From IMG/VR virus record IMGVR_UViG_3300034257_000039, positions 1-32,816 of that record: a stretch of DNA of 32,816 bases; one strand, given 5' to 3'. This document shows positions 5,484 to 23,702 of this stretch, in pieces (positions within the stretch are counted from its first letter, which is position 1; each line of letters starts with the position of its first letter). The notes under the pieces were generated by a model. It ran no database searches and was not told where the DNA came from. It worked only from the letters and a program-made list of their open reading frames with translations. The position numbers were made by a program, and so were the translations under genes. Origin of the DNA: a virus.

Positions 5484-5771
5484 TCAAAAATCCCCTTCGT
5501 TTTCTATTTTCCTGTAAAGTCCTTGCAGATATCTGTTATACTCCTGGATCTGGCCCTCCGGACTCATAAATTTTTTAGCGCCCCGGATCTCTGCCTTAAT
5601 CGTAGTATCTGGGAGAACTTCAAAGGGGACACCATCCTTAACCAGGCTACCGATAAGGGCCGCCCGCCATTGTAAGAAGCTGGGAGGCTTCCGGGTCGGG
5701 GTCTTGTTAAATGACCGTTCACCACATCCCCCGCTTTCAAATCCTGCTCGCTTCGGGCTCCAGGTACTTAT
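5484..5771 (-). CDS. Unknown operon protein with candidate ATA start
   Basis: 95 residues read in one open frame that has no ATG, GTG or TTG in its first 68 codons. The only sensible start is ATA at 5771, which overlaps the previous stop as ATAA, the same geometry as the ATGA overlaps elsewhere in this genome. GGAAGG lies 7 bases upstream. The reading frame continues past an internal ATG with ordinary codon use, and the residues before it (WSPKRAGFESGGCGERSFNK) are protein-like. The C-terminal half is helical (QIQEYNRYLQGLYRKIENE). An alternative is -1 frameshifting from the upstream gene, whose Lys-rich end offers A-rich slippery sites. Confidence 0.6.
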   Translation of the reverse strand: MSTWSPKRAGFESGGCGERSFNKTPTRKPPSFLQWRAALIGSLVKDGVPFEVLPDTTIKAEIRGAKKFMSPEGQIQEYNRYLQGLYRKIENEGDF

Positions 5772-5935
5772 TTTAACGCCTTCCTTTTCTTTTTCCTTTT
5801 TATTTGCTCTACTCCCAGCCGGACAGCATCCCGGCCCGCTTCCTCCAGGGAATTATACCATTTTAAGGCGACAAATTCCTTTAGGTCTTCTGCTTCTGGT
5901 TCGTTTATTCTTATTCTGGTTTTTAAATCAGCCGT
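5768..5935 (-). CDS. Small basic protein with candidate ACG start
   Basis: 55 residues, first gene of the minus-strand operon. An in-frame TAA directly precedes the ACG at 5935, so nothing upstream can be used. GGGAGG stands 7 bases before the ACG. The product begins ADLKTRIRINEPEAEDLKEF, a typical N-terminal composition, and ends in a very basic helix (KRKKKRKALK). The short beta strand followed by helices and the basic tail would suit an RHH-like DNA-binding protein, but this is inference. Confirming the start needs peptide data. Confidence 0.6.
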   Translation of the reverse strand, partial: TADLKTRIRINEPEAEDLKEFVALKWYNSLEEAGRDAVRLGVEQIKRKKKRKALK

Positions 5936-5942
5936 TTATTTA

Positions 5943-6087
5943 CCTCCCTATATCGATTAATGCCTCCATATATGGATTTAATATTATTTATAGTATGGGT
6001 TTAATTAGGGTTTAATATGGGCGTGTTATGGGTATAAATTTATATATTTCAGGCCCTTATATTAGAGCATCAAAGGAGGCTTAAAAT
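5943..6087. promoter_or_regulatory. Divergent promoter region
   Basis: Lies between two diverging transcription units. On the plus strand an archaeal TATA-like box sits at 6032-6047 (GTATAAATTTATATAT), placing the start of transcription near 6070 and the AAAGGAGG site of the lipoprotein gene at 6072-6079. On the minus strand a box reading ACTATAAATA lies near 5985-5997, upstream of the GGGAGG site at 5943-5948 of the minus operon. A GGTTTAAT-like element is repeated near 6000-6018 and may be an operator. Confidence 0.55.
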
Positions 6088-6510
6088 CTGCAAAAATATA
6101 TTTTATTAATCCTGTTCGTTTTCCTTGTCTCAGTCCTAGCCCTGGGCTGTGCTGAGAAACCGAAGACTATTAACGATGAAATCAAGACCCGCGTACAGTA
6201 TGGGACCGTAGACTCCGTAAGCGTGAATAATGGAATACTGACCGTTTCCGATACCCTGGATACTAAATACTCAAAACAATCTTTCAATTATGACGCCGTT
6301 TCCGCTGCTATCGAAATAATGGAGGGCGCCGAAAAGTACCCGGAAATAAAAAGCGTAATTATTGACATTGGAACCAATAACCCGTATATCCCTAAAATCC
6401 TGCATATCGAAACCAGAACAGGGAGCGGGATAAACTGGAAATCAGAGATTCCTATCAATGATATAAAGGAATATTCAAAAACAGTATTTGATAAAGTAAC
6501 CTGGTTTTAA
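6088..6510 (+). CDS. Lipoprotein with candidate CTG start
   Basis: 140 residues if translation starts at CTG 6088, which has AAAGGAGG exactly 8 bases upstream and a stop codon directly before it. That start gives a textbook lipoprotein signal: Gln-Lys-Tyr, a hydrophobic core (residues 5-19) and a lipobox ALGC with the modified Cys at 21. Starting at the later GTG (6223) would delete the signal. The mature part is about 120 residues with no recognised fold. It would be anchored to the outer face of the host membrane, where superinfection exclusion or host-surface alteration is a common viral lipoprotein role, here only inferred. Two terminators follow it. Confidence 0.75.
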   Translation: MQKYILLILFVFLVSVLALGCAEKPKTINDEIKTRVQYGTVDSVSVNNGILTVSDTLDTKYSKQSFNYDAVSAAIEIMEGAEKYPEIKSVIIDIGTNNPYIPKILHIETRTGSGINWKSEIPINDIKEYSKTVFDKVTWF

Positions 6511-6511
6511 G

Positions 6512-6534
6512 GAAAGGGGAAATTTTCCCCTTTC
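6512..6534 (+). terminator. Palindromic hairpin after lipoprotein gene
   Basis: GAAAGGGGAAA (6512-6522) pairs with TTTCCCCTTTC (6524-6534) immediately after the lipoprotein stop. There is no long T-run after it, so it may stabilise the message end rather than terminate by itself. Confidence 0.55.
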
Positions 6535-6573
6535 GTCTGTTCGCTTTTCGGTCTGCCCTAGAGTTCTTTCATA

Positions 6574-6600
6574 GAGGCCTGAACGCCTCGCCCTTTTTTT
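6574..6600 (+). terminator. Hairpin plus T7 terminator
   Basis: GAGGC (6574-6578) pairs with GCCTC (6585-6589), followed by GCC and seven T residues (6594-6600). It is a good fit for a terminator of the lipoprotein transcript. Confidence 0.65.
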
Positions 6601-6793
6601 AATAATCGTTAAGCCTTAAACGTTTCTATTTAGTTTAGATTTAGTACCGGGATAAGATGAAAAGACGCCCAGGCTCTAGCCCGGCTTAAACGTTAAGGGC
6701 TGGACGCCTCCCCCCATATCCCAAATATATAAATGACATTTAAATATAAGTTACTTCCTAATAAAATATAAATCGTAGCCAGGAGCTATAATA
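6601..6793. other. Intergenic region with inverted motifs and promoter
   Basis: No gene is seen. The element CGTTAAGCCTTAAACG (6607-6622) is related to CTTAAACGTTAAG at 6685-6697, and both are near-palindromic, so they may be operators. An ATATATAAATG box near 6724-6734 is a likely TATA element for the plus-strand gene starting at 6794. Confidence 0.45.
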
Positions 6794-6991
6794 ATGTTTT
6801 TCGTAACCTATCGCCCCCATAAATACGAAATAAAGAAGCCCTTTAAGACTCAAAAAGAAGGAGAGGATTTTATAAAATTGGCTAAAAGTTTAAGTTTTTT
6901 AATCCTTTCCTTCAAGGATCAGGACGGGAAAGATATTCCTTTTTACCAGGAGCCTATAATCTGGAATAATGAAAAAATCGAATGGAGGTAA
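6794..6991 (+). CDS. Small unknown protein
   Basis: 65 residues. AGGAG lies 8 bases upstream of the ATG. The sequence is Lys- and Phe-rich with alternating strands (FFVTYRPHKYEIKKPFKTQKEGEDFIKLAKSL), a compact alpha/beta pattern. No family is recognised. Its last codons contain the GGAGGT that serves the next gene, so the two are coupled. Confidence 0.6.
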   Translation: MFFVTYRPHKYEIKKPFKTQKEGEDFIKLAKSLSFLILSFKDQDGKDIPFYQEPIIWNNEKIEWR

Positions 6992-6995
6992 AATA

Positions 6996-7166
6996 ACGAA
7001 CTTAAAAGAGTATAAGGCCTGGCTCCAGCTGCAGATAGATGTCTGCATGAATAACGCCCGTTTTTATATGGAGGCTGGGGAAAGGGGCCAGGATCTAGTA
7101 ACTAAGTACCATGCTTACGCCGATACATACAGGGACGCTTTAAAGACAGCTCAGGAAATCGAATAA
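6996..7166 (+). CDS. Small helical protein with candidate ACG start
   Basis: 56 residues from ACG 6996, which has GGAGGT 6 bases upstream (6984-6989). An in-frame ATG at 6969 would add nine residues but lies before that ribosome site and overlaps the previous gene by 23 bases, so both starts remain possible. The protein is helical (NLKEYKAWLQLQIDVCMNNARFYMEAGERGQ) with many charged residues and no recognised family. Confidence 0.6.
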   Translation, partial: TNLKEYKAWLQLQIDVCMNNARFYMEAGERGQDLVTKYHAYADTYRDALKTAQEIE

Positions 7167-7173
7167 TCTTTAA

Positions 7174-7312
7174 GGCCTGTTAAGGGGTTTTCTCTCATCG
7201 GGGTTATCTTATTTTCGTGTATGATCTTAACAGGCCCGAAGGGTAGGCCCTGATTGCAATTATAGATAAATAATAGGTTCTTAAAAGTACAGGATTTTAA
7301 GAAACAGGGCCC
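7174..7312. ncRNA. Candidate structured RNA
   Basis: Two consecutive stem systems are visible. GGCCTGTTAAG (7174-7184) pairs with CTTAACAGGCC (7226-7236), an 11-bp perfect stem. GGCCCTG (7246-7252) pairs with CAGGGCC (7305-7311) and encloses TTCTTAAAA (7278-7286) pairing with TTTTAAGAA (7295-7303) over an 8-base loop. It directly follows the 7166 gene and has no open frame. It could be a regulatory RNA, a 3' untranslated structure or a protein-binding DNA site; the strand cannot be decided. Confidence 0.4.
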
Positions 7313-7483
7313 GAATATTAGAATGTAATTAACTTAGATAAAATTTTCTATATATTGCTGATTTTATCGATAGCCGCCGCCGTGTATCTATGAGTTGTTA
7401 CGGACTATCTAATTTAAACGGTTGTGCATAATTGCTACAACTTCATTAAGAACGCCGCCGCCGTGTAATAAAATAAGATTACT
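7313..7483. other. Non-coding stretch with a 14-bp direct repeat
   Basis: GCCGCCGCCGTGTA occurs at 7373-7386 and again at 7454-7467, 81 bases apart. GATAAAAT (7338-7345) pairs with ATTTTATC (7361-7368). No gene is seen. Confidence 0.45.
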
Positions 7484-7810
7484 TTATTTATGCTGGCGAA
7501 CTCCGTAAATTATTTCTGAGTAGGTCCGTAACAAATAATTAAGACCTACCCCCCAGATAATACTAGCTTCGCAAAAATGGGCGCTTAAATTCATCGAAAA
7601 CAAAGATATTGTAAATCCCATTTCTTTTTTTCCTCCCGGGTTGATTTTTGGGCCTATGTGTCTACTAAGCCAATCATTCCAGGACTTATAAGAATAGGCT
7701 TGTTTGCTCCGATTTACCCACCATAAAATAGCAAAAAAGTATAAGAAACACATAGCCAATTTAGAGCCCCGCCGCCTGATAGCGAAATACTCAGAGGTAT
7801 GGTTTTCCAT
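7484..7810 (-). CDS. Possible small membrane-associated protein, unknown
   Basis: 108 residues, ATG start, ends TAA. One hydrophobic segment (AMCFLYFFAILWWV, about residues 19-32) follows a basic N-terminus (IRRRGSK), giving a positive-inside signal anchor. The rest has several aromatic residues and another weakly hydrophobic stretch near 66-90. No ribosome site is seen, so it may be leaderless. It stands alone between non-coding stretches. It could be a late host-interaction gene. It is unrecognised and may be a chance frame. Confidence 0.5.
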   Translation of the reverse strand: MENHTSEYFAIRRRGSKLAMCFLYFFAILWWVNRSKQAYSYKSWNDWLSRHIGPKINPGGKKEMGFTISLFSMNLSAHFCEASIIWGVGLNYLLRTYSEIIYGVRQHK

Positions 7811-7858
7811 GATAATTAAACCATAGATAGAAAACTAAAATTAAAACCGTTAGCTGTT

Positions 7859-7909
7859 TACCTTATCCCCTTCTAATTTTTCCAGGTTAGAAGCGAAGGG
7901 AATAAGGTA
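7859..7909 (-). terminator. Long imperfect hairpin at end of structural operon
   Basis: TACCTTATCCCCTTCTAA and TTAGAAGCGAAGGGAATAAGGTA form a long stem with a small bulge around a 10-base loop. On the minus strand a T-rich stretch follows (about 7830-7853). It lies beyond the last tail gene (8183) and probably ends that transcript. Confidence 0.5.
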
Positions 7910-7910
7910 G

Positions 7911-8182
7911 GAAATAAAAATACACTTTTGCATATTTCATTCTTTATATATCTCTTTGGTCTTCGTGCGTTGCCCTCTACTCCTAAGAGGTTGCTGTGCT
8001 TAGATCAATGACTGCTTATACTCTACATTCACCTGAAATGAAAGGACGTTTTGAAGCTTCAAAAATACAACAAACTTAACAGTAATAAGTTTTTGTTTCC
8101 GTTTTTAAAATATGTAAAAATGTAACTATTTTTTGTCACATTTCATTTATATTAGACGTGATAAAGTTAAAAGTTTATAGTG
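7911..8182. other. AT-rich intergenic stretch
   Basis: No gene or strong repeat is seen between the hairpin and the end of the last tail gene, apart from a short CCTCT/AGAGG stem near 7973-7988. Confidence 0.4.
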
Positions 8183-8404
8183 TTAGCCCTGGCTTAGGCT
8201 GTAAGAGTTCCCGCCCTTTACGGGTAAAATAAGAGTCTTTGCTCCAGCTGTTGCAGCTGCAGGGAGAAGGGCATAAAACCCGCCTTTATTATCTGGGTAC
8301 ATTATGACCTTAACCCCTGGGGTTATCGCCTGTTTTTCGTAAAGGGAATAAGCCCCCGATTTACTCGGGATTACTAGACATTTATCTCCAGCTATAGGGG
8401 TCAT
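8183..8404 (-). CDS. Small beta-rich tail protein
   Basis: 73 residues, starting in an ATGA overlap with the 1148-residue tail protein, hence coupled to it. The sequence is a double repeat of strand pairs: CLVIPSKSGAYSLYEKQ and TLILPVKGGNSYSLSQ, with KVIMYPDNKGGFYALLP between them, so three related beta units. Such a small beta repeat at the end of a tail module suggests a tail-tip accessory or fibre-associated protein. No family name can be given. Confidence 0.65.
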   Translation of the reverse strand: MTPIAGDKCLVIPSKSGAYSLYEKQAITPGVKVIMYPDNKGGFYALLPAAATAGAKTLILPVKGGNSYSLSQG

Positions 8405-11400
8405 GTTATGATATTCACCGTTACCGTTTTACCGTCTTTTGTTAAAACCTCGGCTGTTTTGCCGTCGCTCGCTACTGACATTATAGTCCCTTCCTCTGGG
8501 CCCGCCTGTTTGCTTACTGTGTTGTCTATAAGGCTTTGGGTCGTTGCTGTCGAGTCGCTGATCTGGGGCTTTAGATACCCGTTTCCGATGTATTGGGACC
8601 ATTCCATCTCTAGGTAGGGGTCAGCATTCGAATAGATAAAATCTGGTATTAATGTAATTTCTGTTATGTTTTCCTCAGGTCCACAATTATAATTTATATC
8701 TGTGATCCGGAGCCAGGCCGGGCGAGGAATTCCGCTCATATCATCATCTCTATAATTCGACGGGTCCCTCGGATCGTAACAGCGAACGAAAGATAAAGGC
8801 GCCATATTTGTAAGGCTCTGAAGCCGATTGGAGAAGCCAGCCCCGAACCTGAGCCGCTGGTATAATTGCAGGTCAAAACGATTGACAAATTTTACTTTAA
8901 TTGTTGCCTGGCGAGATGTGAAATAATTTAGCCATTTAACGGCCTCGATTTCGTCCGTACTACATTTTTCATTTACTAGGTTATCCTCGATAACATACTC
9001 CCGCATTAATTCGGCCCCTGAAACTACTTCCGGAGTGCAAACCGTACATACTCCAAATAAACCGTTTGCGCTGCCTGTTCCGTAAAGTGTAACTGTATTG
9101 TAATTATTTTCCAGGTCTGGGGAAAGGGTCGGGAGGTCAATAAGGGAAGGGTCCGGATAAGTTAGGGTTACGGGCTCCGGGAGATCTAGGCCGCCGACCT
9201 CGAGGTCTATATCTGCAGGATGCAAAAAGTAAACGCCTGTTTTCCAGCTGGGAGCCTGGAGCGTTCCCGTATTAATCCACTTTGTAAAAAATATGTAATT
9301 ACAGTAATCAGCTATCTTTTTTATGGCTTCTAACCTGGTTGTTTTTGGGTCTATGGTTATCTGAGTTGTCGGCATATCAGGCCGATTTATTACACATGGG
9401 GTAAGGTCATTAACTGAATAATTCACCAAATAATTAATCCAGGTATCCCAGCCGACAAAAGAGCCCCCTAGCGTTAAGACTCTTGCGTCCCAGGGTATTT
9501 TCTGGATAGCTAGATTTTGGGCCCCGTCCGCTGCGTCTAGTTTTACAGTATTCCCGAAATATGAGAGGGTTGGATCAATCGAAAAAACCCGGCCCTTAAA
9601 CAGGAAATAGGGGGCCCCTTTGGCATACGCATTAAATTTAAAAGTGCTACCTCGACCTGGGACCGTATCGTCTGCAAAGTTCGCCGATAAACTCCAGGAG
9701 GTATCTAATATTGATTTTTTCACGTTTGCAGTAATAAAATTATAATCCCTCAATTCTCTAAACTCTCTTAATACAGGGTCGGGAGCTGTCAGATTTATAA
9801 ATGAACTTGCCCCGATATCAGAATCCGAATAAGTGTAAAGGCTTTGTTGTATCGGGTAATGTCGGACCGCTGTAAGGGTCGGAAGAACTGGATCATATTT
9901 TCTAACAAATACCCTATCAATATAACGATTTCCGCCCGCCCCGCTGGAGTATTCACCCTGGCCGAAATGGATTTTTAGGCCTGTTGTATAAGTCGAATCG
10001 GTAATACTTCCTAAAACTGTTTGACTTTCGAAAGTATCGCCGCTTTTAAAAGTGATATCAGAAGGACCGAGAATTATAGAATGACTTTTAAAATTATTTA
10101 ATGACGGATAAGTCGCCTCGGATCCTGTGCGTAATGTCGAGCTTGCCGCCCCGGCTGTTGATTTCTCTATAAACCAGGAATTAGAACCGTTATTAACCAT
10201 TATTCCGTAGGCGCTGGCCTGGTATGTATGCCACCAATCGGATTGAGCGCCCGCCCAATCTTGAAGGGCCCCGCTGCCTATTGTCGTGTCGGGATAGCTA
10301 TAATCATCTAGTTTATCCCGGTAATTGATAATACAGGGCCTTGAAAATGTTTGTTTTGAAACTGCGTTCCCGCTGCTAATTACTCCAGGAGCGCCCGCCA
10401 GCTGTAAGCAATCCCCGTAAAGGGTAACTGTTGCCGAGGCTGACCCTTTTTTATATATGTCCCATTTCGTCGAATTAGGATTACCTGAGCCCTCAAATTC
10501 ATCGAAAAACTCGAAAGTATCGTCCCCGCTGGAAACGCTGGAGGCCGCCCCGTTCCCGTAATAATAATATATTTTTGAATCGTTCGCGGGAAGCTTTACC
10601 CAGCAATCGATAATATTATAATTGCTTAAAATCCCAGGAGTTCTTATATCAATCCAAAATTTAAGAGGTTTGCCTCGAATATCTGTGATTCGTAGGTCCC
10701 GAAAGTCTGAACGCATCCCAGGCGAAACCTGGAGATATACCTCAGCCTGTACGCCGTCCGTTGTGCTGGGATTCGAAACTTTAATATCTCCTCTGAATTT
10801 CCAGGCTTTAAAGGGTCCTGGAGTTTCAGGCCTGAAAAATTGAGGATACCTTAATGAAACGTTACCTTTCAGGGTTATTTCTGCTTTTGGAGTATGGATA
10901 AAGTCCTTTATTGTGACTGCTGGGCTGCATGTTATCGCCGTACTTAGCGTTTCCGTATTAAGTGAATATGTAAAGGTTTTAGGCTGGGTTATGAACTTCT
11001 GACCTAGTGAAAGGGTCGGGTCTACTGCTGCATATTTTATAACAAAAGCGTAATCAATGTAAACGTATTTATTGGCGTCGTAATTTCTAAACCCTACCGG
11101 GAGGGCGTCCGTCCTAGATCCGGTCTGATTGGATACGACTGTCGAGCCGTCGATTATAAGCCGGGTCGCCCCGCTGCCTTTTCTTGAAAAGTCGAAAACA
11201 TGGAAAGCCCCGGAATAGTTCGAGGTCGAGGTCCTGGTCGTGTATCCATCATAAATAAAAGAGGTTAAGGGAGCCGTTCCATAAGTTACCCAGCCGCCGC
11301 CGCCGCCTCCTAGACCTGGATTATTAAGTTTCAAGAAGCCTACGCCCGCAAATTGGCCCGATTCTAACGGAATATTGGCCCGGATTATAGCCCTATATCC

Positions 11401-11847
11401 TTCGCCGAAAGTAACCAGGCCCTTTATTTCGCTGCTTGTGCTGGAGGTTGTCCCTAGTTTTAGTTGGCCGTTTACTATGCTGGCCGTTCCGTACTTGCTC
11501 CATTTCGCCGCGTTTAATGTTGTAGAGGCCTTGAAGTTATCGAAAAACTCGAAAGTTTTGTCTCCATTGCTGGCGCTCGCTGCCTGGCCGTTTCCATAAT
11601 AGAGATAAGCTTTTTTGTCGCTGGCGGGTAGCTTAATCCATACCTTAGCCGTTAAGAAATTTGTAAAACTTTCTACATAAAAATTTAATTCCCTTCCCTG
11701 CAGATCCGAAACCCGGATATCCCTAAAATCAAACCTCATGCCCGGAAGGAAAGGCAAATTAATAAAGGCCTGTTGCCCCGCGCTTGCGCTGGGATTCGTT
11801 ACGATTATTTCCCGTTTATGTTTCCAGGCCTGGTATATTTTCGCCAT
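8401..11847 (-). CDS. Tail-tip hub / receptor-binding protein with two DUF2341 domains
   Basis: 1148 residues. Residues about 7-105 and about 343-450 are two copies of the DUF2341 fold, recognisable from FDFRDIR or SDFRDLR, the LYYGNG or YYYGNG motif and the FEFFDNF/FEFFDEF ending. Each is followed by a lectin-like beta-sandwich of about 180 residues ending in YIDYAFVIKYA or YIDRVFVRKYD. Residues about 690-1080 look like a baseplate hub (gp27-like), with SFVGWDTWINYLVNY and TTRLEAIKKIADYCNYIFF. The end is a small beta domain. It sits after the tape measure and small tail genes, where tail-tip proteins belong. DUF2341 is known from archaeal surface proteins, so glycan binding on the host envelope is likely. 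The fusion of hub and receptor domains is unusual. Confidence 0.8.
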   Translation of the reverse strand: MAKIYQAWKHKREIIVTNPSASAGQQAFINLPFLPGMRFDFRDIRVSDLQGRELNFYVESFTNFLTAKVWIKLPASDKKAYLYYGNGQAASASNGDKTFEFFDNFKASTTLNAAKWSKYGTASIVNGQLKLGTTSSTSSEIKGLVTFGEGYRAIIRANIPLESGQFAGVGFLKLNNPGLGGGGGGWVTYGTAPLTSFIYDGYTTRTSTSNYSGAFHVFDFSRKGSGATRLIIDGSTVVSNQTGSRTDALPVGFRNYDANKYVYIDYAFVIKYAAVDPTLSLGQKFITQPKTFTYSLNTETLSTAITCSPAVTIKDFIHTPKAEITLKGNVSLRYPQFFRPETPGPFKAWKFRGDIKVSNPSTTDGVQAEVYLQVSPGMRSDFRDLRITDIRGKPLKFWIDIRTPGILSNYNIIDCWVKLPANDSKIYYYYGNGAASSVSSGDDTFEFFDEFEGSGNPNSTKWDIYKKGSASATVTLYGDCLQLAGAPGVISSGNAVSKQTFSRPCIINYRDKLDDYSYPDTTIGSGALQDWAGAQSDWWHTYQASAYGIMVNNGSNSWFIEKSTAGAASSTLRTGSEATYPSLNNFKSHSIILGPSDITFKSGDTFESQTVLGSITDSTYTTGLKIHFGQGEYSSGAGGNRYIDRVFVRKYDPVLPTLTAVRHYPIQQSLYTYSDSDIGASSFINLTAPDPVLREFRELRDYNFITANVKKSILDTSWSLSANFADDTVPGRGSTFKFNAYAKGAPYFLFKGRVFSIDPTLSYFGNTVKLDAADGAQNLAIQKIPWDARVLTLGGSFVGWDTWINYLVNYSVNDLTPCVINRPDMPTTQITIDPKTTRLEAIKKIADYCNYIFFTKWINTGTLQAPSWKTGVYFLHPADIDLEVGGLDLPEPVTLTYPDPSLIDLPTLSPDLENNYNTVTLYGTGSANGLFGVCTVCTPEVVSGAELMREYVIEDNLVNEKCSTDEIEAVKWLNYFTSRQATIKVKFVNRFDLQLYQRLRFGAGFSNRLQSLTNMAPLSFVRCYDPRDPSNYRDDDMSGIPRPAWLRITDINYNCGPEENITEITLIPDFIYSNADPYLEMEWSQYIGNGYLKPQISDSTATTQSLIDNTVSKQAGPEEGTIMSVASDGKTAEVLTKDGKTVTVNIIT

Positions 11848-11863
11848 TCCTTCCGCCTCTGTT

Positions 11864-13360: not shown

Positions 13361-13699
13361 TTAGATAGCCCCGGCTCGACTGAACCCTATTGAGTAAGAA
13401 AATTTTCCAGAGCCGAGGATCAGCTCTTTTATATTTCCGAAACTGGAAATGTAACAATTAGTAAAACTTACGCCGTCTATTATCAGGGTCCCGAAGGTCC
13501 CGATAAGGGCCTCCAGGTCCTCGATTTCTGTATGATCTGTTGTGTAACATAAAAAAGTTCGAGGGAAAGAGGGCGCTATAGGCGAAATACTAGCATGAAT
13601 CAAACCAGAATAAAGCCGTAATTCTTTTTTCTGGATATCATAGCCTATATCCCCGGCCTCATAACAACTAATCGGGGCGCCGGAAAATGTAACTGTTAT
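13361..13699 (-). CDS. Small tail protein after tape measure (Dit-position), candidate ATA start
   Basis: 112 residues when read from ATA 13699, which overlaps the tape-measure stop as ATAA and has AGGGGG 8 bases upstream. No ATG, GTG or TTG precedes codon 33 in this frame, yet the sequence before that codon is clearly coding (TVTFSGAPISCYEAGDIGYD). The C-terminal part (LIIDGVSFTNCYISSFGNIKELILGSGKFSYSIGFSRA) is a beta-sandwich typical of small tail proteins found after tape measure genes. An alternative is a -1 shift of the tape measure at AGG GGG TAT, where the Gly tRNA could re-pair on the five-G run. Role in tail tip assembly is inferred from position. Confidence 0.65.
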   Translation of the reverse strand: MTVTFSGAPISCYEAGDIGYDIQKKELRLYSGLIHASISPIAPSFPRTFLCYTTDHTEIEDLEALIGTFGTLIIDGVSFTNCYISSFGNIKELILGSGKFSYSIGFSRAGAI

Positions 13700-16539
13700 A
13701 GAATATACCCCCTGGCTCGCCTTTGGCTTGTTGAATATCTTTCTATTTCCTCAATTAATTTTTTAATATCCATTCCGCTTGATAGCGTATTTGGGCCTAT
13801 TGAATATGAGTCGCCTTCGTAGTTATTTGTCGTTACCGGATTACTCAGGCCTGAACTATTATTGATTACCTGGGCGACGTTCCCCAATCCTGTTTTTAAA
13901 TTGCCTGGGATTTTGTTAAGGCTCATGTTTATTGGATCTGAAAAAATCGCATCCCAATTAGGTAATATTCGGAAAGGCCCCTTTTTCGCTGGGCTATGGG
14001 GCATATACTCATCAATCCAGCTCAGAATTTCGTTTATGGCGTCCTTTATGTCCTCGATCTTTGAGTTTATCCCGTTTAAGAGGCTCTGGAGAATAGCCGC
14101 GCCCGCATTGTAAAAACTGGACGCTGCGTTTCTTACCTTATCCGCCAGGCCTGTAACCGCGCCTAAGATAGTCGTAACCCTGCCAGATACCGCGTTATAA
14201 ATATCATCCCAGGCCCGCCGCCAGTTACTCAGTATATCCGCCGCTGCAGCTTTGACCTGATTAAAGCGGTTCTGAACATCTGAATAAAACCCGGATAGTC
14301 TGGAGGATATGCTCGAAGCCGCTGAGGATAAAGTCGCTAAGAAATCGTTCCAATGGGTCCGCCAGGAGGCCAGGATAGAAGCCGCCGCCGCTTTTACCTG
14401 ATTAAAGCGGTTCTGAACATCTGTATAAAACCCGGATAGTCTGGAGGCTATACTCGAAGCTGCAGAGGATAAAGCCGCTAAAAACTCGTTCCAGTGAGTA
14501 CGCCAGGACGCCAGGATCGAAGCCGCTGCAGCTCTGACCTGATTAAAAACAGCCTGTACGCTTGCATACCAGGAGGAAAGCCGGGCCGATATGCTCGAAG
14601 CTGCAGAGGATAAAGCCGCTAAAATATCGTTCCAGTGTGACCGCCAGGAAGTAAGGAGAGCCTGTATCCCTGCGATAATCTGATTATATCTAGCCTGCAG
14701 GCCTGCATAAAATGACGTTGCAGCTGAAACAATCAGATTAACCGAAACTGAGAAGGCCGCCGCCAGGAGGTCCCAGAGCGTTTTAAAGTTCGTCCGGAGG
14801 TTCGAGGCTCCCATGATTACCGCGTTATGGTAATACTCCAGCCTGTTAACGAAATTAGAAAAGGCTGTCGTTAGATAATCCCATACCGCCGCCGCCTTTT
14901 CCCGGATCCCGCCCCAATCCCTAGACCATGCCAGCGCCAGGAGGGCTATTAATCCGACTACAATAAGGACCGGGGCCCCTATTGCTGAGAGAGCCGCTAT
15001 TATTACGCCTATGGCTGCCTGGGCTGCTCCGAACGCTACCGCCAGCGCCCCGCCAGCTCCGAACAGGCCCGCTAGTGCCCCGATTCCCGAAGCTACCGCC
15101 CCGGCTACGACTAGGATAGGCCCCAGGGCTGCAGCTAGACCGATAAACCCGATAATTATTAATTTTACAGTAGGGGAAAGCTCATTGAAGCTTTTAAGAA
15201 CGCTCGCCAGGATAGGGAGCATTGCCTCGATTGCTGGGACTACAGTATCCTGAATCAAGGGGACTATAGTATCCTGGAAAATGGGGACGAAATCCTCGCC
15301 TATTTTTATTACAATAGCTTCGAAAGAGGCCTTTAATTTATCCAGGCTTGCAGATCCGCCCTCATCCATCAATTTAAAGGCCTTATCTGTTTCCCCTGCG
15401 CTCTTTCCCATTTCTACTAGGTTATTAGAGTATATTTTCTGGCCTGGTCCGGAGAGCATCATAACAGCGTTTCCAGCCTCTACACTCCCGAAATAGTCCG
15501 ATATCCTGGTCGTTGTATCTCCGAACTTAACCCCCAGCTTGTCGAGGGCTTGCTCGGCTGTCCCGCCGCCCTTCTGGAAATCCTTAAAACTCTGGCCTGT
15601 TAAGCCTTCAAAATTTTGGGCCAGTTTAGAGGTCGGGTCTGCTAGTTCCATCATAGCCTTTTGCAGCTTGCCAGCATCGGGAACCGTTTTATTGAGCCCG
15701 TCGCTTAGGACCCCTATAGCTCCCTGGAGGGTCCCGCCTGAGGCGATAAAGTCAGGGAAAGACTTTCCTGAAAGCTTCTCAAATGTTACCGCTGTTGCTG
15801 ATCCGTCTTTGGATAGCTCGACTAGCATCTGTCTTAGTTGAGTTGTTGCAACCCCAGTAGGCGCCCCCTGCGAGGTCATTGCAGCGATAGCCGCCGTAAC
15901 GTCCCCGAATGGTACTTTAAGATTAGCTGCGATTGGTCCGACGTCCTTAAACGCCCCGGACAGCTCGGCTATAGTTGTCTTTCCCAGGCGAACGCCAGTA
16001 AACATAATATCCGAGGCCTGAGCCGCTGTTATGTTCTCCGCCCCGTAGGCATTGACTACAGAGGAAAGGCCATTTACTGAGGTTATCAAATCGGCGTTTC
16101 CGCCTACCGCTGTCTTTTGAGCCTGGGCGATAAAATCGAAAACGTTTTCTTTTGGGACTCCTGCAGAAATAGCCTGATAAAGGCTCGTTGCTACCTGCTC
16201 CGTTCCGACTCCCATATCCTGAGAGAATTTTAAGGCCTGTTCTTTCATGCCTCCCATACTCTCTTTTGTAATCCCAGGAAGGAGAGTAAAAACCTGATTC
16301 ATATTTTTATCAAAATCTAGCGCCGACTTTGTAGCGTACCCAATCCCCCCGGCTACTGCAGCGATAGGAACAGTAATTCCCGCCGTTAGCTGGCCGCCCG
16401 CTGCGCTTAGATCTTTTCCCGTTTTAGATATCCCGGCCCCTAGCCCGCCTATTTCGGTTCTAAGGTCCGAAAAGGTCGTTTTAAGGGCCTTCATATCCCC
16501 TATAATACTGACTATTAATTGCGCCGCTGCTCCCGCCAT
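13696..16539 (-). CDS. Tail tape measure protein
   Basis: 947 residues, the longest helical protein of the tail module and placed after the chaperones. Residues about 90-300 match the TP901-type tape measure core (QALKFSQDMGVGTEQVATSLYQAISAGVP, and GVRLGKTTIAELSGAFKDVGP). A hydrophobic membrane-like stretch lies at about 453-540. Residues about 613-775 are 47-residue tandem repeats with WRTHWNxFLAxLSSAASSI. The family sets tail length and helps DNA entry; at roughly 1.5 angstrom per residue, a tail near 140 nm is expected. Starts at ATG with AGGGGC upstream. Confidence 0.9.
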   Translation of the reverse strand: MAGAAAQLIVSIIGDMKALKTTFSDLRTEIGGLGAGISKTGKDLSAAGGQLTAGITVPIAAVAGGIGYATKSALDFDKNMNQVFTLLPGITKESMGGMKEQALKFSQDMGVGTEQVATSLYQAISAGVPKENVFDFIAQAQKTAVGGNADLITSVNGLSSVVNAYGAENITAAQASDIMFTGVRLGKTTIAELSGAFKDVGPIAANLKVPFGDVTAAIAAMTSQGAPTGVATTQLRQMLVELSKDGSATAVTFEKLSGKSFPDFIASGGTLQGAIGVLSDGLNKTVPDAGKLQKAMMELADPTSKLAQNFEGLTGQSFKDFQKGGGTAEQALDKLGVKFGDTTTRISDYFGSVEAGNAVMMLSGPGQKIYSNNLVEMGKSAGETDKAFKLMDEGGSASLDKLKASFEAIVIKIGEDFVPIFQDTIVPLIQDTVVPAIEAMLPILASVLKSFNELSPTVKLIIIGFIGLAAALGPILVVAGAVASGIGALAGLFGAGGALAVAFGAAQAAIGVIIAALSAIGAPVLIVVGLIALLALAWSRDWGGIREKAAAVWDYLTTAFSNFVNRLEYYHNAVIMGASNLRTNFKTLWDLLAAAFSVSVNLIVSAATSFYAGLQARYNQIIAGIQALLTSWRSHWNDILAALSSAASSISARLSSWYASVQAVFNQVRAAAASILASWRTHWNEFLAALSSAASSIASRLSGFYTDVQNRFNQVKAAAASILASWRTHWNDFLATLSSAASSISSRLSGFYSDVQNRFNQVKAAAADILSNWRRAWDDIYNAVSGRVTTILGAVTGLADKVRNAASSFYNAGAAILQSLLNGINSKIEDIKDAINEILSWIDEYMPHSPAKKGPFRILPNWDAIFSDPINMSLNKIPGNLKTGLGNVAQVINNSSGLSNPVTTNNYEGDSYSIGPNTLSSGMDIKKLIEEIERYSTSQRRARGYIL
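14230..14700 (-). repeat. Tandem 141-bp repeats within tape measure gene
   Basis: The phrase TTAAAGCGGTTCTGAACATC recurs at 14261 and 14402, exactly 141 bases (47 codons) apart, and weaker copies extend the array to about 14700. At protein level four copies of a helical unit with WR-HWN and LSSAASSI are seen. Changes in copy number would change tail length. Confidence 0.8.
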
Positions 16540-16797: not shown

Positions 16798-16829
16798 TAA
16801 GCCGAGCTGGGCGAATACGTCCCCTATTG

Positions 16830-17219: not shown

Positions 17220-17228
17220 AGAAACCCC

Positions 17229-18026: not shown

Positions 18027-18038
18027 ATTTACACCTGT

Positions 18039-18422
18039 TTAAAATTTTAAATAAGAAACTTCGAAATCGTAGGGGATTTGATAAAGTTTTGTACTCTGTT
18101 CGTAAATATCGAGGGAATTTTGAGGGATTATTTTGATTATTTCGAAACCGTCGACTATGCCCGAATATCCGACCAGAGCCGACTCGACGGCCTGGGCTAG
18201 TTGCTGACATTGGAGGAAATCGAGAGCCCAGCTATCAACCTGAAATCTAGGGGACCCTATAACCCGGCTCCAGGGATTAGATACTTTAAAAATCGAAATT
18301 GCCGGGAAAGTACATTCTAACGGGAGTTCTTGCGGATAGATCCGGGAGCCTACCGCGTTTATTATTGCTGGATTAACCGCCAGGATAGACCGGACCGCCC
18401 CGTCTATTGTGGTAACGGTCAT
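18039..18422 (-). CDS. Tail terminator-like protein
   Basis: 127 residues, ATGA overlap with the upstream gene. The sequence has the alpha/beta pattern of tail terminator or tail completion proteins (gpU-like): SRIYPQELPLECTFPAISIFKVSNPWSRV, then FQVDSWALDFLQCQQLAQAVESAL, and KLYQIPYDFEVSYLKF at the end. Position just before the tail tube gene fits this role of stopping tube growth and joining the tail to the head. Confidence 0.75.
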   Translation of the reverse strand: MTVTTIDGAVRSILAVNPAIINAVGSRIYPQELPLECTFPAISIFKVSNPWSRVIGSPRFQVDSWALDFLQCQQLAQAVESALVGYSGIVDGFEIIKIIPQNSLDIYEQSTKLYQIPYDFEVSYLKF

Positions 18423-18871
18423 TTGAAGGGCTCCAGGATCCGGAGTATAACCGCGTTAAACTCCTCGATTATTTCGTCCTTGTTTTCGTCCAGGGCTGGC
18501 CGTAAAAAAGGCCTGGGCCTCTGATGATAAACCCGCCCTTTACTGTCCGTATCGCTAAAACCCAGCTCTAGGCGCCTAGCGTAATCCATATCTGAGCCGA
18601 CTTTTATCTCGACCTGGCCCGCTTTCTTTTTCGTTTCTAGCAGAGTTATAGACCGCTTTAAGTTCCCGGTCTGTAACATCGGGAAATCATCATTAACCCG
18701 GACCCCGCCCTCGCCTCCGGCCCTGGAATTGATCGCCGCCTCCCGAGCCACTACCGCCGCCCCGGCTGCTGTTGCAGTCAAGAGGGCCTTATCAAGCTCC
18801 TTTTCAAGACCTGCGAAATGAGAGAGGAGTTTTTCAACTCCCTCTATTTTGATCTCGAATACTTCCGCCAT
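18419..18871 (-). CDS. HK97 gp10-like tail completion / head closure protein
   Basis: 150 residues. The N-terminal FEIKIEGVEKLLSHFAGLEKELDKALLTATAAGAAVVAREA and the following SRAGGEGGVRVNDDFPMLQTGNLKRSITL, YARRLELGFSD and HQRPRPFLRPALDENKDEI are the hallmarks of the HK97-gp10 family. It lies between the connector genes and the tail terminator. GGCGGT precedes the ATG. Overlaps the next gene as ATGA. Confidence 0.85.
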   Translation of the reverse strand: MAEVFEIKIEGVEKLLSHFAGLEKELDKALLTATAAGAAVVAREAAINSRAGGEGGVRVNDDFPMLQTGNLKRSITLLETKKKAGQVEIKVGSDMDYARRLELGFSDTDSKGRVYHQRPRPFLRPALDENKDEIIEEFNAVILRILEPFK

Positions 18872-18873
18872 TT

Positions 18874-19497
18874 TTACCGCCAGATTTTGATATTCTTCTC
18901 TTCGGCTTCGTCCAGAGCCCAGGCTCTCGGGAGTTCGTTAAACATTTTAAAAAACCGGCTTCTGTAATAGATATCTTCTTTCATCAAAAAAAGAACGATA
19001 TCAATAAGCTGATACATGAAAGTTAATTTTCGAGGACAGCCGTTTTCTGCTCCGTCCTCGAAATACTCAGCTATAAAAGATCTGAAAAAACCGCTTAGTT
19101 TCTGGAGCCTGGGATCCTCAAAAATATAGGCGTCTTTGTCATATCCTCCCGTAATCTGTTTATGGGCCGCTGCTATTGCTTTTACCATTCCGGTTTTTGC
19201 GACGTCCTGGAAAAACTTTCCTTTTCCGTGAAAAAAGGGAGAGAACCGGAAACCGCCCCCCCCTGGCTTTTGTCCTGCGTTTTCGTTGCCCTGGATCCTG
19301 GGGTCCCTATCCTTTGCTGGATTCCAGGTTATCAGCTCGCCGTCTTTTTCATAGAAGGCGAGGAGTTTATTTTCGAGGAAAAGCGCGGTTTTATGCTCGA
19401 TATTGATATCATAGCCGCCTTTTCCGTCCCTTGTGACCCGTCCGGCCTGGATCTCCTCCTCGAGTCCCTGCTCGTCTAATGTGAAACAGAGATCCAT
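18874..19497 (-). CDS. Unknown virion-module protein
   Basis: 207 residues, coupled to the upstream gene by TAATG. It has charged, mixed alpha/beta sequence: QAGRVTRDGKGGYDINIEHKTALF in the N-terminal part, a Gly-rich turn at about residues 76-82 (GGGGF), then a helical C-terminal half (PRKLTFMYQLIDIVLFLMKEDIYYRSRFFKMFNELPRAW). No family is recognised. Its position between connector proteins and HK97 gp10 suggests a head-tail joining or assembly function. Confidence 0.6.
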   Translation of the reverse strand: MDLCFTLDEQGLEEEIQAGRVTRDGKGGYDINIEHKTALFLENKLLAFYEKDGELITWNPAKDRDPRIQGNENAGQKPGGGGFRFSPFFHGKGKFFQDVAKTGMVKAIAAAHKQITGGYDKDAYIFEDPRLQKLSGFFRSFIAEYFEDGAENGCPRKLTFMYQLIDIVLFLMKEDIYYRSRFFKMFNELPRAWALDEAEEKNIKIWR

Positions 19498-20138
19498 TAT
19501 AGACCCCCTGGTTTCTTTTCCAAAGTTTCGAGGCTGGCCTCAATGTGGTCTATTTCTCCGTCGAATAGGTCCGGGATAGTTTCGACGTGAAAAACCGTGT
19601 AAGTAAAGTTTTCGAACCCTGGCGCCGTTGTGGTTATTCTGTCCCCTTTCTGGACGTCAGTATCCGGCAAAAAAAAGACCCCTGGGACCTGCAGGATAAA
19701 CCGCCCGCCTTTATTGTCCTGGAGAGTACCGCCGCCGCCGCCCTGTTTCAAATTCGAAAACCTGCAGCTCCCTATCGAGGTTGAAACCTGAGTATATACC
19801 GGAGTGCCTACCTCGTTACATTCCAGAGTTGCAGATCCGGAAACTATAGCCGTCCCGCCCTGGCCTCCTGGGATCGTCAGCTCCTCGAGTCCTTCGCCTG
19901 GCTCAAAGGTCCCCGAAACATTCGATAGAATAAGATAACCTACCGCAGAGCCCAGGCTCCATACTCCAGAGGTCAGGACTACGCTTTTTATAGTCCCTTC
20001 TGCCTCGGAAACTGACCCTAAAAGGATTTTTGAAACCGTGAACCCGTCCGCGCCCATTGAAAACCCGAGGCGCTGATCCTGCATATTTCTAAGAATAGTA
20101 CAGGAATGAATCATCCGAACGTCTAGCCCGCTAGTCAT
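19497..20138 (-). CDS. Probable head-tail joining protein, unknown family
   Basis: 213 residues, GAGGGGT upstream of ATG. The sequence is rich in beta strands with Gly turns (LKQGGGGGTLQDNKGGRFILQVPGVFFLPDTDVQKGDRITTTAPGFENFTYTV). This resembles phage head-closure proteins such as SPP1 gp16-type, where a short beta barrel carries KGDRI. The N-terminal 120 residues are an additional beta domain. The head-closure assignment rests on the KGDRI-type barrel and gene order and is moderate. Confidence 0.6.
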   Translation of the reverse strand: MTSGLDVRMIHSCTILRNMQDQRLGFSMGADGFTVSKILLGSVSEAEGTIKSVVLTSGVWSLGSAVGYLILSNVSGTFEPGEGLEELTIPGGQGGTAIVSGSATLECNEVGTPVYTQVSTSIGSCRFSNLKQGGGGGTLQDNKGGRFILQVPGVFFLPDTDVQKGDRITTTAPGFENFTYTVFHVETIPDLFDGEIDHIEASLETLEKKPGGL

Positions 20139-20147
20139 TCGAACCCC

Positions 20148-20546
20148 TCAGCCTGTATTATTGACTTTTCCGGGCCCTACTCTCGAATAAGGGATACTCA
20201 ACCCTGAGTATCTGGCCGCCAGCCTGAATTTATCAGCTATCCGGGCCGCCTCCTCTTCATGGTGCTGGATATTGGCCTCTATGTTATTGCTTACTGAATC
20301 GTTCCCTAGTTTAACCTGGGCCGCCAGCTCGCCGTTTATCTGCATGTTTCGGAGGACCTGGGCCGCGCTTGCATAGATCCCGGCTGTATTCAGATCATCG
20401 TTTCCGGACTGATCCGCGCCAGCTGTCGGACCTGCTCGGCTTGCTACCTCTCGAGACTTGATATTAATTATTGCCAGATAATCGGCATCTGTGAGCTTCC
20501 TGGAGTTAGCCAGGGCTCGAACCTCAGTAGGAGAACATAGAGCCAT
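20148..20546 (-). CDS. Head-tail connector adaptor-like protein
   Basis: 132 residues, GGGGCGG upstream of ATG, directly after the capsid gene. It begins MALCSPTEVRALANSRKLTDADYLAIINIKSREVASRAG, the N-terminal helix pattern of gp6/gp15-type head-tail connectors, then AGIYASAAQVLRNMQINGELAA and a helical end. Such adaptors bind the portal and begin the neck. The assignment rests on pattern and position. Confidence 0.7.
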   Translation of the reverse strand: MALCSPTEVRALANSRKLTDADYLAIINIKSREVASRAGPTAGADQSGNDDLNTAGIYASAAQVLRNMQINGELAAQVKLGNDSVSNNIEANIQHHEEEAARIADKFRLAARYSGLSIPYSRVGPGKVNNTG

Positions 20547-20559
20547 GTAACCGCCCCGC

Positions 20560-21480
20560 TTAACTGCTTCCCATGCCGGAAATAGTACAGATACACGGAT
20601 CGGTAGCTGATACGGTCAAATGCTTGAACCTGGGAACCAGGGCGCCGACCTGGCGGACCATGATATCGCCGCTGTCGATGTTTCCGTCCTTATACCAGAG
20701 CTGATTGACCGGGATCTGAGTCTCGACAATATCCATAAATCTGATATTCTCGGGAGTTGCTACGGGTGAAACCATTCCATACCCTGCGCTCAGGTCGACA
20801 GATTCGATTATCTGGCCTGGAGTCTGACCGTTCGGGGCTGCTCGATTCAAAACTTTGAGGACCTGATCGGCTTCTGATATCCCGGCTGTCGATACTGAGG
20901 CGTCCAGCTCGGCGTAGTTGAAAGAGGGAAGGGTCAGATTATACCCGGCTGAGTAAATTTTCGCGGTTTTAAGCTTGCTAATAGCTCCAGCGACATTTTT
21001 AAGCATGTTTCCATATGTCCCGGAATCCGACCCGCTGAAATCGTTAGCCGCTACCTGAAACATTCCCTTTATTTCGTAAGAGGAGCCTTTCGGAGCCCAG
21101 CCGTCCACAATTATTTTAGACTGATGAAGGGCGATAGCTGCGGCCATATCCTCGGCGAGATCGTTTTGAACTTTAACGCCTTTCAGGTTGTAGGCGTCCC
21201 AATCCCTACGCTTAATTATGGCGTCCTCTTGCTGAACAGGGATTCTAGTAATAGAGCCCTGAACGTCTACCGCATCGGGTATGTCCTGCTGAATGTCGTA
21301 ATTGGTAACGGGCTCGCCTCGAGCAACGTATTTGAAAGTTTCTACTGACAAAACCCCGAGCCCCTGGCCGGATAACTCACGGTTTACTGGCGATAGCATC
21401 TTTCCTATACTGTTTGCTCTTAATACCGGGATAATTGCCTTGTCAAACTGGCGCCCGAGTGTGGATAGTGCGTTAGTCAT
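20560..21480 (-). CDS. Major capsid protein (HK97 fold)
   Basis: 306 residues, placed after protease/scaffold and decoration genes and before the connector. It resembles capsid/encapsulin-type HK97 proteins: RQFDKAIIPVLRANSIGKMLSPV, then TNYDIQQDIPDAVDVQGSITRIPVQQEDAIIKRRDWDAY (E-loop/spine region), LAEDMAAAIALHQSKIIVDGW, and a C-terminal MDIVETQIPVNQLWYKDG, IMVRQVGALVPRFKHLTVSATDPCICTISG (A-domain). AAGGAAGTGA precedes the ATG. The exact family is not certain, but the fold and gene order are consistent. Confidence 0.8.
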   Translation of the reverse strand: MTNALSTLGRQFDKAIIPVLRANSIGKMLSPVNRELSGQGLGVLSVETFKYVARGEPVTNYDIQQDIPDAVDVQGSITRIPVQQEDAIIKRRDWDAYNLKGVKVQNDLAEDMAAAIALHQSKIIVDGWAPKGSSYEIKGMFQVAANDFSGSDSGTYGNMLKNVAGAISKLKTAKIYSAGYNLTLPSFNYAELDASVSTAGISEADQVLKVLNRAAPNGQTPGQIIESVDLSAGYGMVSPVATPENIRFMDIVETQIPVNQLWYKDGNIDSGDIMVRQVGALVPRFKHLTVSATDPCICTISGMGSS

Positions 21481-21484
21481 TTTT

Positions 21485-21952
21485 TCACTTCCTTGTAATT
21501 ACCCAAATTGTTTTAACTCCGGTTGAGGCGTTGACGTCCTGGGCTGCGTCTGCGATTACGTCGTCCGTTCCTACTGTTGCAGCTGTGAGCTGTCCGTCTG
21601 CAGCTCTTTTGAGAGGGTCCCCGTTTGCGACGTTCTGACCCGAGGCTAAATATCCCATTTGTCGGCGTCCTGCTCCTCTTCTTACGCCTACCTGGTTGCC
21701 TCTTGCGTAGGCTGTGGTTATCGTTTCAGGCCTGAACTCTGCAGGCGTCCCCATGTAATCGAGATAGCCTATTTCGTTCCCCGAGGCGTCGCATTCTATG
21801 ACCTCGGCCCCTGTTGCTCCCTGCTTTACCAGGATCCCAGGAAGGCATTTCGCCGCTGTTGCTGTAGCCCCGATAAAATAGAGTTCTCTGTCAAGCCCGC
21901 CGCCCGCCACTACGTCATTAACAGGAATTTTAAAACCTGGTTGTGCGGTCAT
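21485..21952 (-). CDS. Capsid decoration / cement protein
   Basis: 155 residues, ATGA overlap with the protease/scaffold gene. It is beta-rich with short strands typical of DUF2190-like head decoration proteins: KCLPGILVKQGATGAEVIECDASGNEIGYLDYMG, then VRRGAGRRQMGYLASGQNVANGDPLKRAADGQL and DDVIADAAQDVNASTGVKTIWVI. It lies just before the capsid gene in the usual place. Role: stabilises the expanded capsid. Confidence 0.7.
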   Translation of the reverse strand: MTAQPGFKIPVNDVVAGGGLDRELYFIGATATAAKCLPGILVKQGATGAEVIECDASGNEIGYLDYMGTPAEFRPETITTAYARGNQVGVRRGAGRRQMGYLASGQNVANGDPLKRAADGQLTAATVGTDDVIADAAQDVNASTGVKTIWVITRK

Positions 21953-22986
21953 TCGTCCCAGCCTCCGGTAGTTGCATTATAAACTCCGAGGCTTCCGCCT
22001 GGTCCATCGCTTTTCGGGTACTGTCCCCCGGAGGCGCTGATCGGCCTGAGGGTTTCAAACTCGGCGCTGATCCTGTCGAAATCCGAAGCTGAAAGGGTAG
22101 TATAATCCTCTTCCTTTGTCTCGAGGTTCCGCTCCTGCCTGACAGCTGCAAACCTGGCATAAGCCGCCGCCCTGGTTTCCTTGTCCTTTTCTTCCTTGAT
22201 AGCCGCCGCTATCATTTCGGGTAATTTTTCCATATGTATCATGCTCGCTTTTTCAAGTTCGAGGGAGGCGATTAAAGCCGCCTGGTCTTTATTTTTCTGC
22301 TCGAGTTCTGTAATAGAGGCCTGGACTGCTGGGTCTACTGGATCCCCTGCAGCTCCTCCGGGTCCTCCGGGTCCTGCCTTGATATCGGCGAGGGCCTTCT
22401 CGAGGGCGTCGAGCCTGGCCGTTATCTCTTTCATCGGGTCGTTTGTCGGGTCTGCTGTGGGATCTGCCACTTTATCACCTTTTAAATTTTTAGTACAAGC
22501 TGATTTTTTAGATGCTGTGATCTCAAAAGTTGACGGGCTGCTCCGTCCTATCTTTTCGGTCTTTTTTGCTGCCTCAGCTGCGGAAATGTCCCAGGTTGAC
22601 CCCTCCCAGGCTGGAAACCTTACTAGGGTCATAGATCGGGCTGAAAATCCCTGAGAAAAGCCGTTTTCGTTCCCCTGCTCCCAGGCGTAAACGCTCCAGT
22701 TTTTTTCCCAGGTCCCTTCTAAAATTTTAGCTTCCGCCGCTGAGTCTGTGATAATTCCAGCCGCCCAAATATCGCCGCCGTCCTGCCAGGCGTCCGTGAT
22801 CCTCCCGATTTCCGCGTAAGGGTCCTCGAAAAAATCGCATATATGGGCCTCTGTCCGAGTGCAAACCCGGATAACCGAAGACTTCAACGAATTTATGGCG
22901 TTTTGAGCCTCGGAAGAAGGAACGCCCCAGCCGTTCGCGTTTATTACGTCCAGCGGAAAGCATTTCCCTTTAATTAAAATAGACAT
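21949..22986 (-). CDS. Prohead protease-scaffold fusion
   Basis: 345 residues. Residues about 1-150 resemble XkdF-like prohead protease domains: VCTRTEAHICDFFEDPYAEIGRITDAWQDGGDIWAAGIITDSAAEAKILEGTW. A Gly/Pro-rich linker (about 160-220) and a long charged coiled coil (about 220-280) follow, as in protease-scaffold fusions; the C-terminus is helical. It precedes the capsid genes. A TATA-like box (TTTATATTA on the minus strand) lies about 28 bases before the ATG, so this operon leader may start at the ATG (leaderless). Catalytic residues cannot be named with confidence. Confidence 0.75.
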   Translation of the reverse strand: MSILIKGKCFPLDVINANGWGVPSSEAQNAINSLKSSVIRVCTRTEAHICDFFEDPYAEIGRITDAWQDGGDIWAAGIITDSAAEAKILEGTWEKNWSVYAWEQGNENGFSQGFSARSMTLVRFPAWEGSTWDISAAEAAKKTEKIGRSSPSTFEITASKKSACTKNLKGDKVADPTADPTNDPMKEITARLDALEKALADIKAGPGGPGGAAGDPVDPAVQASITELEQKNKDQAALIASLELEKASMIHMEKLPEMIAAAIKEEKDKETRAAAYARFAAVRQERNLETKEEDYTTLSASDFDRISAEFETLRPISASGGQYPKSDGPGGSLGVYNATTGGWDE

Positions 22987-22989
22987 TTT

Positions 22990-23150
22990 ATAATTTTATT
23001 GGAACAACAATAATATAAATTTATGTATGTTAGTATGTTTGCTCACGGTTATGTGCTATCGATTTTAATTATATACAATTGGAACAGATTATATACTATT
23101 GAGTCTAATTGATAGCTTGACTTTCTGAAAAAAAAGGACGAAAGGAGCCG
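22990..23150. promoter_or_regulatory. Divergent promoter region between structural operon and cargo genes
   Basis: For the minus strand, TTTATATTA near 23011-23019 lies about 28 bases before the ATG at 22986, which fits a leaderless start. For the plus strand, two TATA-like boxes, ATTATATACAATT (23068-23080) and GATTATATACTATT (23087-23100), are about 20 bases apart, upstream of AAAGGAG (23141-23147). The word ATTGGAACA occurs near 22995-23005 and near 23077-23086 and may bind a shared regulator. Confidence 0.55.
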
Positions 23151-23155
23151 GTACT

Positions 23156-23470
23156 CTGGAGTATATTTTTGATAAAGAAGGAAAGGCCATATCGATTTTA
23201 GAGTATGGAAAGCTGTTTCAAGATTTTGATTATAGAATAATAGCCCAGGATACCCTAATAAATGGGGTTTTTATCTCGACTATCTGGGACGGAATAGACC
23301 CTTACGGAGGAAAAAGGGTTTTTTTAACTGACGTGTTCAATGATGACGAATTAACAGAACACCTGGAGAGCCGCCGATATCTTACAGAGGAGGAGGCCCG
23401 GCTAGGCCAGGCTGAACTAATAAAAAAGTATTCCCCCAGGAGGCTTTTAAATTCAAACTTATGTATTTAA
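23156..23470 (+). CDS. Small phage-type protein with candidate CTG start
   Basis: 104 residues. CTG at 23156 has AAAGGAG exactly 8 bases upstream; an in-frame TGA lies 30 bases before it and no ATG, GTG or TTG lies between. The segment GVFISTIWDGIDPYGGKRVFLTDVF resembles a common small phage and plasmid protein with the pattern VSTVWLGLDH-(F)-G-PPLIFETMVF, of unknown function. The C-terminal region is charged and helical (TEEEARLGQAELIKKY). First gene of the plus-strand cargo operon. Confidence 0.65.
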   Translation: MEYIFDKEGKAISILEYGKLFQDFDYRIIAQDTLINGVFISTIWDGIDPYGGKRVFLTDVFNDDELTEHLESRRYLTEEEARLGQAELIKKYSPRRLLNSNLCI

Positions 23471-23702
23471 ACAGTTGACCGCCGTAATGGTTTTTTTAGT
23501 ATCTGACGCCTTACTCTGGATTATCCGGGAGGATATAGGCATTTATTTTTATGTTGGACTTATTTTAATTCTCTGGATATTCTTTTTCGCGGTATGGTCT
23601 GGTTTTCCGTTCTTGCTTTCTGCTCCTGTCCCGAGTAAGATAATAATAGTAAATGATTTAAAAAGCGCCTTTGAAAAAGTAGAGGAGGAAAATAAATTAT
23701 GA
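23451..23702 (+). CDS. Small membrane protein with candidate ATT start
   Basis: 83 residues from ATT 23451, which has AGGAGG 7 bases upstream (23438-23443) and an in-frame TAA immediately before it. A later TTG (23475) has no ribosome site. The product carries two membrane segments (about TAVMVFLVSDALLW and IYFYVGLILILWIFFFAVW, residues about 9-22 and 30-49), then a short charged tail. It overlaps the previous gene by 20 bases and the next gene as ATGA. Function unknown; candidate host-membrane protein. Confidence 0.6.
   Translation: MQTYVFKQLTAVMVFLVSDALLWIIREDIGIYFYVGLILILWIFFFAVWSGFPFLLSAPVPSKIIIVNDLKSAFEKVEEENKL

Follow-up and report, generated by a model that had tools for sequence, protein, structure and literature searches.

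The DNA analysed here, the whole of which is referred to as the window, is the 32,816-base record IMGVR_UViG_3300034257_000039; judging from its sequence, it appears to be the whole or most of the genome of a tailed virus (siphovirus) with a predicted Methanosarcina-like archaeal host. Its predicted proteins include a large terminase, a portal-like protein, a Mu-F-like head protein, a tail terminator, a tape measure protein and a major tail protein that has an Ig-like match; the genes for the terminase, portal, major tail and tape measure proteins have homologues in tailed viruses of methanogens. When terminases are compared, Methanoculleus virus Blf4 (L4768; 52% identity) is the closest of the named viruses, whereas the closest relatives are proviruses in Methanosarcinaceae archaea (one of the nearest resides in genome G082), to which many of the structural genes are ~30–64% identical; a portal match was present in 23 of 112 Methanosarcinaceae genomes. 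The 51 listed genes end with TAA (35) or TGA (16) and none with TAG, which fits a virus of a pyrrolysine-using methanogen, where TAG is read as pyrrolysine.

Some further features of the window were recorded. A long tail-fibre-like protein is encoded at 8401–11847 (−), with the DUF2341 domain matched in two stretches; the tape measure gene contains an internal repeat (14240–14649; ~83% identity over 270 bases, with a shift of ~141 bases); and ~600 bases at 24985–25609 hold a convincing gene on neither strand. At 25864–28007 (−), the head-protein gene is divided into two parts and carries a split intein: the N half terminates in a Hint domain (...RPPLHHH|CLIQGTKIE) and is followed by a free-standing HNH endonuclease gene (26193–27020), and the separate C half opens with a C-intein (...IANGVIVHN|CRSALLP). 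In the relative L199 the head-protein gene is unbroken (...RPPLHFHCRSDLIP). The arrangement resembles known fractured-gene split inteins.

A sequence-only reading had assigned seven genes of the window to Shine-Dalgarno-led near-cognate start codons, and the codons are indeed found where it placed them: ATA 5771 (−), ACG 5935 (−), CTG 6088 (+), ACG 6996 (+), ATA 13699 (−), CTG 23156 (+) and ATT 23451 (+). All seven differ from ATG by a single base, and the two ATAA overlaps that it described are present at 5768–5771 and 13696–13699. A matching SD in a register of 7 or 8 (the distance in bases from the final G in the SD core to the start), which is also the register of most SD-led ATG genes in the window, precedes six of the seven codons, whereas the SD proposed for 5771 is weak. 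The frames of all seven genes are intact, with no stops or frameshifts, and in-frame stops located just before the starts at 5935, 6088 and 23451 exclude entry there by readthrough or frameshifting from far upstream. Homologous N termini support the start exactly at 13699, to within one codon at 5771 and 5935, and to within ~3 codons at 6088; the starts at 6996, 23156 and 23451 rest on the SD and the reading frame.

The predicted tail-tip/baseplate gene at 13361–13699 (−) starts with ATA behind the SD AGGGGGT (13713–13707), in an ATAA overlap with the stop of the tape measure gene. Among 11 homologous stretches, 10 have ATG or GTG at exactly the position of the ATA, and in the eleventh (L201) ATG is placed upstream. 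Eight homologues of the product align with it from residue 1 (35–46% identity); in the resulting nine-row alignment (the window and these eight), the ATA is aligned with the starts of the others, and most rows retain the G-rich SD. The functional prediction is based on the location of the gene directly after the tape measure gene and on a weak fold likeness: a search with the structural model (pLDDT 76.6, i.e. fair confidence, with an N-terminal strand) showed weak resemblance to baseplate/Dit-like (distal-tail) proteins, none at E ≤ 0.001. A frameshift fusion of the tape measure protein to this gene was considered and rejected because the homologues possess their own ATG or GTG at this point, often with in-frame stops shortly upstream.

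The two paired small genes on the same strand also have relatives. The conserved gene at 5484–5771 (−; 95 codons) starts with ATA in an ATAA overlap with the preceding gene; its SD, GGAAGG (5784–5779), is not contiguously complementary to the anti-SD, the best pairing being AGGA at −1.9 kcal/mol. Two Methanosarcinaceae homologues begin with M-SWSAKRAGFES and M-TWSPKRAGFES, compared to (ATA)-S-TWSPKRAGFES in the window, that is, one codon off. Conservation of the TWSPKRAGFES motif led us to reject the idea that the N-terminal half of this gene, where codon bias is weak, is non-coding or frameshifted. A tRNA-like attachment site in 5650–5771, suggested by a stretch similar to a tRNA 3′ end, was dismissed as well: there was no relevant Rfam or ARAGORN hit, and the stretch was unmatched in the 112 Methanosarcinaceae genomes. 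The preceding gene (5768–5935, −; 55 codons), whose product is possibly ribbon-helix-helix-like, judged by eye, starts with ACG behind the SD GGGAGG (5948–5943). An in-frame TAA immediately precedes the ACG, and there are zero ATG, GTG or TTG codons throughout the frame. Nine homologous stretches in Methanosarcinaceae have ATG at most one codon from the ACG (for example, M-TENYPTSFRL vs. ACG-ADLKTRIRI); taken singly, these matches are weak (E from 1e-4 to 0.007 per genome). An additional SD-led ATA at 5532 (−), which would lengthen the 5173–5487 gene to 119 codons, is probably due to chance, with TTG 5487 or ATG 5481 being the likelier start.

The lipoprotein gene at 6088–6510 (+) starts with CTG behind the SD AAAGGAGG (6072–6079). 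The signal peptide and lipobox QKYILLILFVFLVSVLALGC start right behind the CTG, an in-frame stop codon lies at most two codons upstream of it, and the homologue L206 begins with MRKSIFFLVLL...GCSEKPQT. For the products of the three remaining genes, a homologue search yielded nothing convincing. The small gene at 6996–7166 (+) has an ACG start, the SD GGAGG (6984–6988, register 7) and in-frame codon bias, and an in-frame ATG without an SD is located 27 nt upstream, at 6969. The small gene at 23156–23470 (+), likewise with codon bias, starts with CTG behind AGGAG (23143–23147, register 7), and the sole standard start in its frame is GTG 23333. The small membrane protein gene at 23451–23702 (+) starts with ATT behind AGGAGG (23438–23443), with an in-frame TAA immediately upstream and two downstream alternatives, TTG 23475 and ATG 23487, neither with an SD. 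The statement that six of the seven genes offer no suitable standard start is therefore to be narrowed, given the in-frame, albeit SD-less, alternatives at 6996 and 23451. Similarly, near-cognate starts recur within one genome, but calling their use systematic is too strong for these two genes and for 5771, with its weak SD.

The 51 genes as listed comprise 42 starting with ATG, 2 with TTG (both doubtful), 0 with GTG and 7 with near-cognate codons, the last count resting on sites chosen beforehand. The TTG starts, at 1502 and 2494, are superseded by SD-led ATGs downstream (~1466 and ~2428). On average, the SD is stronger in the near-cognate set than in the ATG genes (−7.1 vs. −4.0 kcal/mol; Mann-Whitney p = 0.006), a difference that we give little weight because these sites were selected by a reader who was searching for SDs. 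A scan that did not depend on that choice of sites, although designed after the finding had been read, considered SD-led frames that were 50 codons or longer, lacked a standard start both upstream and within their first 12 codons, and did not compete with a longer frame. The ratio of near-cognate to other starts was 4:0 for the window, compared to 2:30 for the Methanosarcinaceae loci harbouring the relatives (855 kb) and 8:91 for further loci from phages and prophages (2.26 Mb); the comparison loci overlap partly, such that the counts are not fully independent. The window differs significantly from the relatives (Fisher's test, p = 2.5 × 10−4, or p = 1.5 × 10−3 at 3:0, with the doubtful ATA 5532 dropped). 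The base rate, i.e. the share of near-cognate codons among the non-stop, non-standard triplets of the window, is 14.2%.

Orthologous starts in the proviruses (n = 150) are nearly all standard, with 135 ATG and 13 GTG, and the other two look like alignment or frame artefacts. Because the orthologues keep ATG or GTG, the near-cognate codons are derived in the lineage of the window. When only orthologous structural genes were compared, the difference was not significant (1 near-cognate start among ~22 in the window vs. 0 of 148 in the relatives, p = 0.13), indicating that small accessory genes account for most of the excess. Conservation of the rare codon in homologues, as in infC, was not observed, the homologues carrying ATG or GTG; this makes a long-standing regulatory device of individual genes less likely, and the choice is then between recent lowering of protein dose and relaxed start-codon selection in this virus-host pair.

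On the strength of the sequence comparisons, we consider it probable that low-efficiency near-cognate initiation is real in at least four genes, and probably in six or seven (ATA, ACG, CTG and ATT). It is unlikely that ordinary starts are used instead and that some of the calls are mistaken, with ATG 6969 taking the place of 6996, and ATG 23487 or TTG 23475 that of 23451: all three codons are in frame, but it is the near-cognate codon that an SD precedes, and none is found at 6969, 23487 or 23475. Moreover, the 5935 frame offers no ordinary start, and initiation at the first standard start would cut conserved N-terminal sequence from the products of 13699, 6088 and 5771. Very little credence can be given to the idea that the start codons were misread in sequencing or assembly, which the sequence-only reading had rightly discounted. 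The record is probably metagenomic, and six of the seven sites are known from a single assembly (other viral contigs bearing these six were searched for, and none was found); however, a second virus contig, which may or may not be an independent sample, matches the window with zero mismatches over 8071 bases and carries the ATA at 13699, the one site of the seven that it covers. Furthermore, for 7 of 51 start codons to be hit at random, ~4.6% substitutions would be required by a rough estimate, that is, ~1,500 changes and ~50 new stops, a rate that would have wrecked other frames. Given that the frames are intact, random error is implausible, and the same argument opposes start-loss mutations in dying, untranslated genes of a decaying provirus. 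Such decay, itself highly improbable, would account for the over-representation of small accessory genes and for the standard starts in homologues, but not for seven frames free of stops and frameshifts, a far larger target than the start codon, nor for the retention of the SDs, and one of the genes is a conserved predicted tail gene.

Relaxed start-codon selection in the host or the infected cell (involving, for example, aIF1 or the initiator tRNA), whereby random changes of ATG are tolerated, also accepts near-cognate initiation and is a possible explanation, although not the one we favour. The changes are varied within one genome (T to C, G to A, A to C and G to T) and absent from the homologues, as would be expected under such relaxation. 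On the other hand, ATG is kept at 42 of the 51 starts, and GTG, the most easily tolerated change, is found at none; the scarcity of GTG and TTG is curious under relaxed selection but not significant. In addition, ARAGORN identified no tRNA genes in the window, such that a virus-encoded tRNA, the mark of virus-directed recoding, is missing, and no initiation factor was noticed among the window proteins searched. Relaxed selection and dose lowering both fit the evidence at hand, and the low expression and altered host initiation suggested by the sequence-only reading are conjectural.

If low-efficiency near-cognate initiation occurs as we propose, the SD helix, in register at six of the seven starts, would align the initiator tRNA with the near-cognate codon, and a strong SD might keep that codon in the P site until Met-tRNAi is accepted, so that Met would be inserted at the N terminus despite the codon mismatch. 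At the two ATAA overlaps, a ribosome terminating the upstream gene might reinitiate on ATA. In archaea, aIF1 is reported to promote discrimination against non-canonical starts (cited in PMC8211752). The expected output of proteins started in this manner would be low: in E. coli, CUG initiation amounts to 0.86% of that from AUG (PMC11497404). By this value, the yield may be very low, which is awkward for a predicted structural gene; low output would, conversely, suit regulators and low-copy tail parts. A further conjecture, to which we attach rather low probability, is that start-codon identity is largely dispensable in this virus-host pair, a strong SD or a just-terminated ribosome being sufficient, so that genes drift to ATA, ACG, CTG or ATT.

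With at least four homology-anchored cases in a small genome, the virus would offer a compact natural system for gauging the weight that archaeal ribosomes give to SD pairing relative to codon-anticodon pairing. Real viral genes are truncated or overlooked by gene callers that accept only ATG, GTG and TTG, the 5768–5935 gene having no such codon. Should start-codon identity prove dispensable, standard callers would misplace starts, and similar genes could hide in other archaeal viruses.

Most known examples of near-cognate initiation in prokaryotes are single, scattered genes, and among bacterial genes with rare start codons are infC and pcnB (both AUU). As in the virus, these are single genes behind an SD, with a start one base from ATG and low or regulated output; however, each is one regulated gene conserved between species, whereas the virus has several unrelated genes in which the codon is not conserved in homologues. 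Blf4/L4768 and the Methanosarcinaceae proviruses are similar to the window in the terminase (~52–63%), the portal (up to ~54%) and the major tail protein (up to 53%), but their compared genes begin with standard start codons, and a scan of Blf4 for SD-led near-cognate starts returned zero cases. Searches of the open-access literature turned up no earlier description of archaeal viruses with near-cognate starts. Termination-reinitiation at ATGA overlaps has been reported in archaea and bacteria (PMC6728339), and the ATAA overlaps of the virus likewise span 4 nt in which the stop and start codons have bases in common; the viral start codon is, however, ATA rather than ATG, and reinitiation on ATA is only proposed here. 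Finally, in Ribo-seq of Methanosarcina mazei Go1, 5% of the 314 small ORFs lacking annotation were given a CTG start (PMC11456600). ACG, ATA or ATT starts were not noted in that account, and the viral case differs in that it includes conserved genes and lacks GTG starts; nevertheless, the host genus is probably related, and these small ORFs suggest that CTG starts can work there.
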